In this document: piece by piece, positions 8,201-32,421 of the stretch
Layout of the letters: each line of letters opens with the position of its first letter
Numbering within the stretch: the stretch's first letter is position 1
DNA from: Streptomyces sp. TG1A-60
Lineage (GTDB): Bacteria > Actinomycetota > Actinomycetes > Streptomycetales > Streptomycetaceae
Reading direction: 5' to 3'
DNA length: 64,000 nt
NCBI RefSeq assembly: GCF_037201975.1
Contig: NZ_CP147520.1
Coordinates: 62,001-126,000, forward strand
Made by a program: the position numbers and the translations under genes
The notes under the pieces: model-generated
The model's input: only the letters and a program-made list of their open reading frames with translations
Database searches by the model: none
What the model was told of the DNA's origin: nothing

Positions 8201-32421
<24,221 letters not shown>

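Follow-up and report, generated by a model that had tools for sequence, protein, structure and literature searches.

A one-base frame break in a modular polyketide synthase gene of Streptomyces sp. TG1A-60 is very probably an uncorrected deletion in the genome consensus

The window, that is, the whole stretch of 64,000 nt analysed here (positions 62,001 to 126,000 of contig NZ_CP147520.1 of Streptomyces sp. TG1A-60), carries, by Pfam and ORF analysis, genes for an AAA_16 protein (1-978), a P450 (1158-2588), an ABC permease and ATPase pair with a 74-nt overlap (2473-4246), a MarR-type regulator on the plus strand (4191-4793) and a DUF1048 protein (6360-7055). Three polyketide synthase (PKS) genes follow on the minus strand, namely the gene with the frame break (8201-32433), the upstream PKS gene of the line, which encodes 3,678 aa in two modules and is unbroken (32437-43473), and part of an equally unbroken gene of 12,599 aa (43510-64000; genome 105510-143309), the latter two being delineated by ORFs, the coding model and a module scan. 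The 12,599-aa gene begins outside the window with a KS-AT-ACP module that is taken for the loading module. These genes belong to a PKS line at genome 70-228 kb, whose PKS genes amount to ~149 kb, a length summed by hand from ORF and coding-model coordinates. One gene of the line (genome 184195-190407; L033, L034) terminates in an ACP and a thioesterase and is probably its last, and as it sits in the middle of the gene row, the gene order and the assembly order seem to differ. Beside the cluster, three large ORFs at genome 18214-56146 (L028-L030) contain nine KS matches and no AT match, as would be the case, by analogy, in a trans-AT PKS.

The gene at 8201-32433 is a type I modular PKS with Pfam KS, AT, KR and ACP domains, and five KS-AT-KR sets are distributed across two minus-strand ORFs of different frames, 28201-32433 (1,410 aa) and 8201-28747 (6,848 aa), which share the stretch 28201-28747. 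The upstream frame encodes a docking domain, KS, AT and the start of the ketoreductase (KR) of the first module, followed by ~130 residues out of frame, and the downstream frame encodes the KR remainder, an ACP and four more modules, with Pfam matches to KR 111-180, the ACP, the next KS and the first part of its AT. The whole span measures 24,233 nt, or 3 x 8,077 + 2, which is one base under a multiple of three. Both the ORF overlap and the missing base had been recognized in the first-pass annotation, and its size of 8,070 residues for the joined protein was nearly right, the value computed here from ORFs, Pfam, alignment and module scan being ~8,077 residues if the gene is one frame.

The frame changes within the first-module KR at 28598-28600, as was established by several approaches. 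First, the Pfam KR profile (PF08659) is matched at positions 1-109 in the upstream frame and at 111-180 in the downstream frame. Second, a coding model that allows frame switches, built for this analysis and trained on 369 ORFs of this genome, placed the switch between 28598 and 28599 (genome 90598/90599), and the coding log-odds of the two segments, 285 and 1,737 nats, indicate that the break is more than chance. Third, tblastn with the KR of an intact relative put the frame change at 28600 (genome 90600). Five identical bases in a row occupy 28595-28599, so that the run and the frame hand-over together define a site at 28595-28600 on the minus strand, which upholds the junction and the KR frameshift proposed earlier.

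The best protein match, obtained with the downstream frame alone as the query, is a type I PKS of Herbidospora mongoliensis (P0003; 7,933 aa) that is one uninterrupted frame and is colinear with the two frames over its whole length. Its residues 1-1305 align to the upstream frame and 1306-7932 to the downstream frame, with 68% and 69% identity, respectively; the aligned part of the upstream frame ends at residue 1278, that of the downstream frame comprises residues 50 to 6842, and zero residues are missing at the hand-over, in agreement with the earlier statement that the two frames join with nothing else lost. The H. mongoliensis protein differs in being encoded by an unbroken frame in another genus, from a genome whose report gives Illumina MiSeq as the sequencing platform (PMC4599437).

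The KRs of the four nearest relatives checked (L009, L010, L011 and L078, the last being the source of the query) span the site in one frame, and among the fetched loci, 105 of 106 of which have a KR match, 204 KR matches read through the site without a frame change and 2 break there, the loci being able to overlap, so that the 204 are not as many independent genes. The two broken matches are the window itself (L001) and L121. Within this genome, 33 KR matches in the fetched 264 kb around the cluster span the site unbroken. Among 392 genomes of the genus, the nearest KR DNA has 73-75% identity (G126, G178 and G287), and the search for an intact copy in this species or in a closely related strain found none: of 747 proteins scored, 120 of them listed, the best is 73% identical, and a separate collection scan may omit records of the window's own genome. 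As a separate observation, the KR of L121 from Streptomyces himastatinicus is broken at ~4167-4185, near the same profile position as the KR of the window.

The conserved single frame of the relatives bears on the possibility that the DNA is correct as written and that the short run is a site of programmed or corrective slippage, through which a full-length protein is made from the two frames. The five-base run at the junction would provide a place for it, and, according to a review, a viral mRNA shows low-level frameshifting where seven Gs stand in a row (PMC5009743). However, the frame transition is not conserved in the four relatives that cross the site, a slippery heptamer of the form X XXY YYZ was sought in the 120 nt around the site and is absent, and this assembly has comparable breaks in unrelated genes as well. 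In addition, the run is only five bases long, whereas, according to a frame-transition survey, transcriptional realignment often takes place at a homopolymer of at least eight bases or at a pair of shorter runs (PMC3711429). None of the papers listed by the literature searches is about slippage in a PKS gene; one that was retrieved deals with a mitochondrial gene (PMC5698493). Slippage is therefore extremely improbable in our estimate, and there is hardly any chance that the PKS is corrected at the level of expression, with low-level slippage yielding enough full-length megasynthase, perhaps at several sites of the line. The first-pass annotation had likewise regarded slippage as conceivable and without other support.

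Apart from the single break, the gene appears intact. ORFs and the coding model revealed no further stop or frame loss in the remaining 24 kb, and further decay, which was sought as a sign of a pseudogene, was not detected, the downstream frame being open for 6,848 codons past the break and colinear with the relative to its end. This argues against a genuine frameshift in the strain, although a very recent mutation would show the same lack of decay. Such a mutation would leave a KS-AT fragment whose KR is truncated and which lacks an ACP; the chain would stop at this module, and the line would remain without a finished product. The consensus does read as broken at the site, genes of secondary metabolism are in principle dispensable for growth, and one-base losses in short runs are a natural type of mutation as well. 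What weighs against a genuine mutation is that the break has counterparts, first in the PKS line and then in genes in which it should not be tolerated.

In the PKS line, the coding model, domain scans and translations identified three more frame breaks, all outside the window (L034, L035 and L036), so that the earlier description of the PKS as otherwise perfect fails for the line as a whole. One lies in another KR (genome near 190,42x), in which the Pfam profile is matched at 1-75 in one frame and at 81-179 in the other. A second interrupts an AT (genome near 217,2xx), of which Pfam scores the upstream portion alone (2-179 of 319); a search with the line's own AT recovered the downstream portion. 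The third falls in a KS C-terminal domain (near 227,25x), for which one frame supplies positions 1-112 of 119 and the other the region that follows. The translations display the frame hand-over at each of the three. Runs of five or six identical bases are found at the KR break of the window and at the second KR and KS breaks, and the AT break has no such run. Altogether, three genes of the PKS line carry 4 breaks, which amounts to one per 37 kb over the ~149 kb, and a genuine mutation in the window would have to be counted among four inactivating events within a single line. The ORF overlap at genome 166158-166941 was also considered as a frameshift and was rejected in favour of two adjacent genes, because the switch of the coding model coincides with the stop codon and the KS does not start until residue 301 of the downstream ORF.

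Core genes were then compared with the corresponding stretch of a single relative, the congener G136, over 800 kb (3.4-4.2 Mb) of the 7.83-Mb chromosome, about 10% of it. Of 12 genomes, G136 gave the best match at a single core gene, and it may not be the closest in the genus; in an earlier query over 36 genomes, only one genome matched across most of the query length. With filters of at least 60% top identity and at least 60% of the protein covered, 294 of 640 G136 proteins passed against the DNA of this genome, and 304 of 596 in the reverse direction. This yielded 8 breaks in 308,025 aligned nt of this genome vs 0 in 308,127 nt of G136, about one per 39 kb of conserved coding sequence. A first homology run over 400 kb had given 6 breaks in 161,448 nt vs 0 in 157,965 nt, and the stricter filters applied to the 800 kb dropped two of those six, near 3470498 and 3767698. 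All 8 core breaks are net one base short modulo three, five being clean single-base differences and three compound (+17, -7 and -7). A G/C run of at least five is present at the junction in 6 of the 8, against a summed expectation of ~0.8 from random coding windows matched in length, and the other two have longest runs of 2 and 4.

Raw switches of the coding model (41 candidates in 1,064 kb) were rejected as a measure of the rate, since many represent overlapping genes or edge effects; at genome 43115, for example, the switch falls within a stop codon. Conversely, the candidate filter missed the KR break near 190,42x that was seen in the other scans, and the candidates in the 1.3-1.5 and 5.6-5.8 Mb stretches have the coding model as their one source.

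The rates in the PKS line (4 in ~149 kb) and in core genes (8 in 308 kb) agree, and at such a rate a 24-kb gene would be expected to contain 0.6 breaks, which makes the break in the window unremarkable. For a genuine mutation this equality is difficult, as frame losses in core genes should be selected against. The most telling of the 8 core breaks is that in the only delta' gene of DNA polymerase III (genome 3658746-3659950; L050), which is in two pieces that match the profile at 2-69 and 65-392; NCBIfam concurs, with 2-70 and 66-390. In all 10 other genomes searched, which are congeners, delta' is one open match over profile positions 2-390 or 2-391. The sole further match to the delta' profile, at ~110 bits and under the cut-off, is common to all 11 genomes and is presumably dnaX. 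Delta' is essential in E. coli and B. subtilis and, from general knowledge and by extension from these species, would be so in this organism too; a living strain without delta' is therefore hard to accept. RadA is likewise split, at 2-326 and 326-454. Given these observations, a genuine recent frameshift in the PKS gene is very unlikely, and of the two options left open in the first-pass annotation, a dropped base or a truncated enzyme, the three sister breaks in the line and the rate of about one break per 39 kb in core genes including delta' favour the dropped base, truncation being the less favoured.

Based on these findings, we propose with high confidence that the frame break reflects a one-base deletion left uncorrected in the genome consensus. 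The relatives read through the site in one frame, this genome has an excess of breaks in the 800 kb compared that includes its only delta' gene, and the breaks cluster at homopolymers; as the same kind of slip recurs across the genome, even in delta', a sequencing error is more likely than a biological cause. The short run would have lost one base at the sequencing or polishing stage, the assembly bearing losses of this type at a frequency of about one per 37-39 kb of coding DNA, and the organism's own gene would most likely be one frame, a five-module PKS of ~8,077 residues colinear with the H. mongoliensis protein. We infer that the raw reads would disagree with the consensus at the break and that the sequencing method is its cause. 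Some observations point the other way: the three compound core breaks could be real, the AT break and two core breaks lie off runs of at least five, and this assembly shows no shortage of G/C runs of five to seven when compared with G136.

The proposed explanation is consistent with published cases. A survey that covered the frame transitions of 1,106 prokaryotic genomes expects singletons validated by BLASTp to stem from sequencing errors and not from genuine indels (PMC3711429), and the present gene resembles these GeneTack singletons in being a lone break with intact relatives that lack it. Single-gene PKS/NRPS frames were likewise split by indels in megasynthases assembled from long reads, where one truncated domain was ascribed to a possible sequencing error and pseudogenisation, according to the authors, could not be ruled out (PMC8692599); that case, however, concerned a soil metagenome with far more broken genes, whereas here breaks come at about one per 37-39 kb.

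The break is thus most likely of low biological interest and useful as a caution about the genome record. The PKS line should not be read as dead, nor its pieces as separate short proteins; annotation as well as prediction of the product would be led astray by the four breaks, which fall in three genes of the line. As a rough measure of quality, the record has about one loss that breaks a frame in every 39 kb of conserved coding sequence; scaled simply, with the 81% coding share of the 3.4-3.8 Mb stretch, this would mean on the order of 160 broken genes in the chromosome. The split delta' gene offers a handy quality marker for this genome record.
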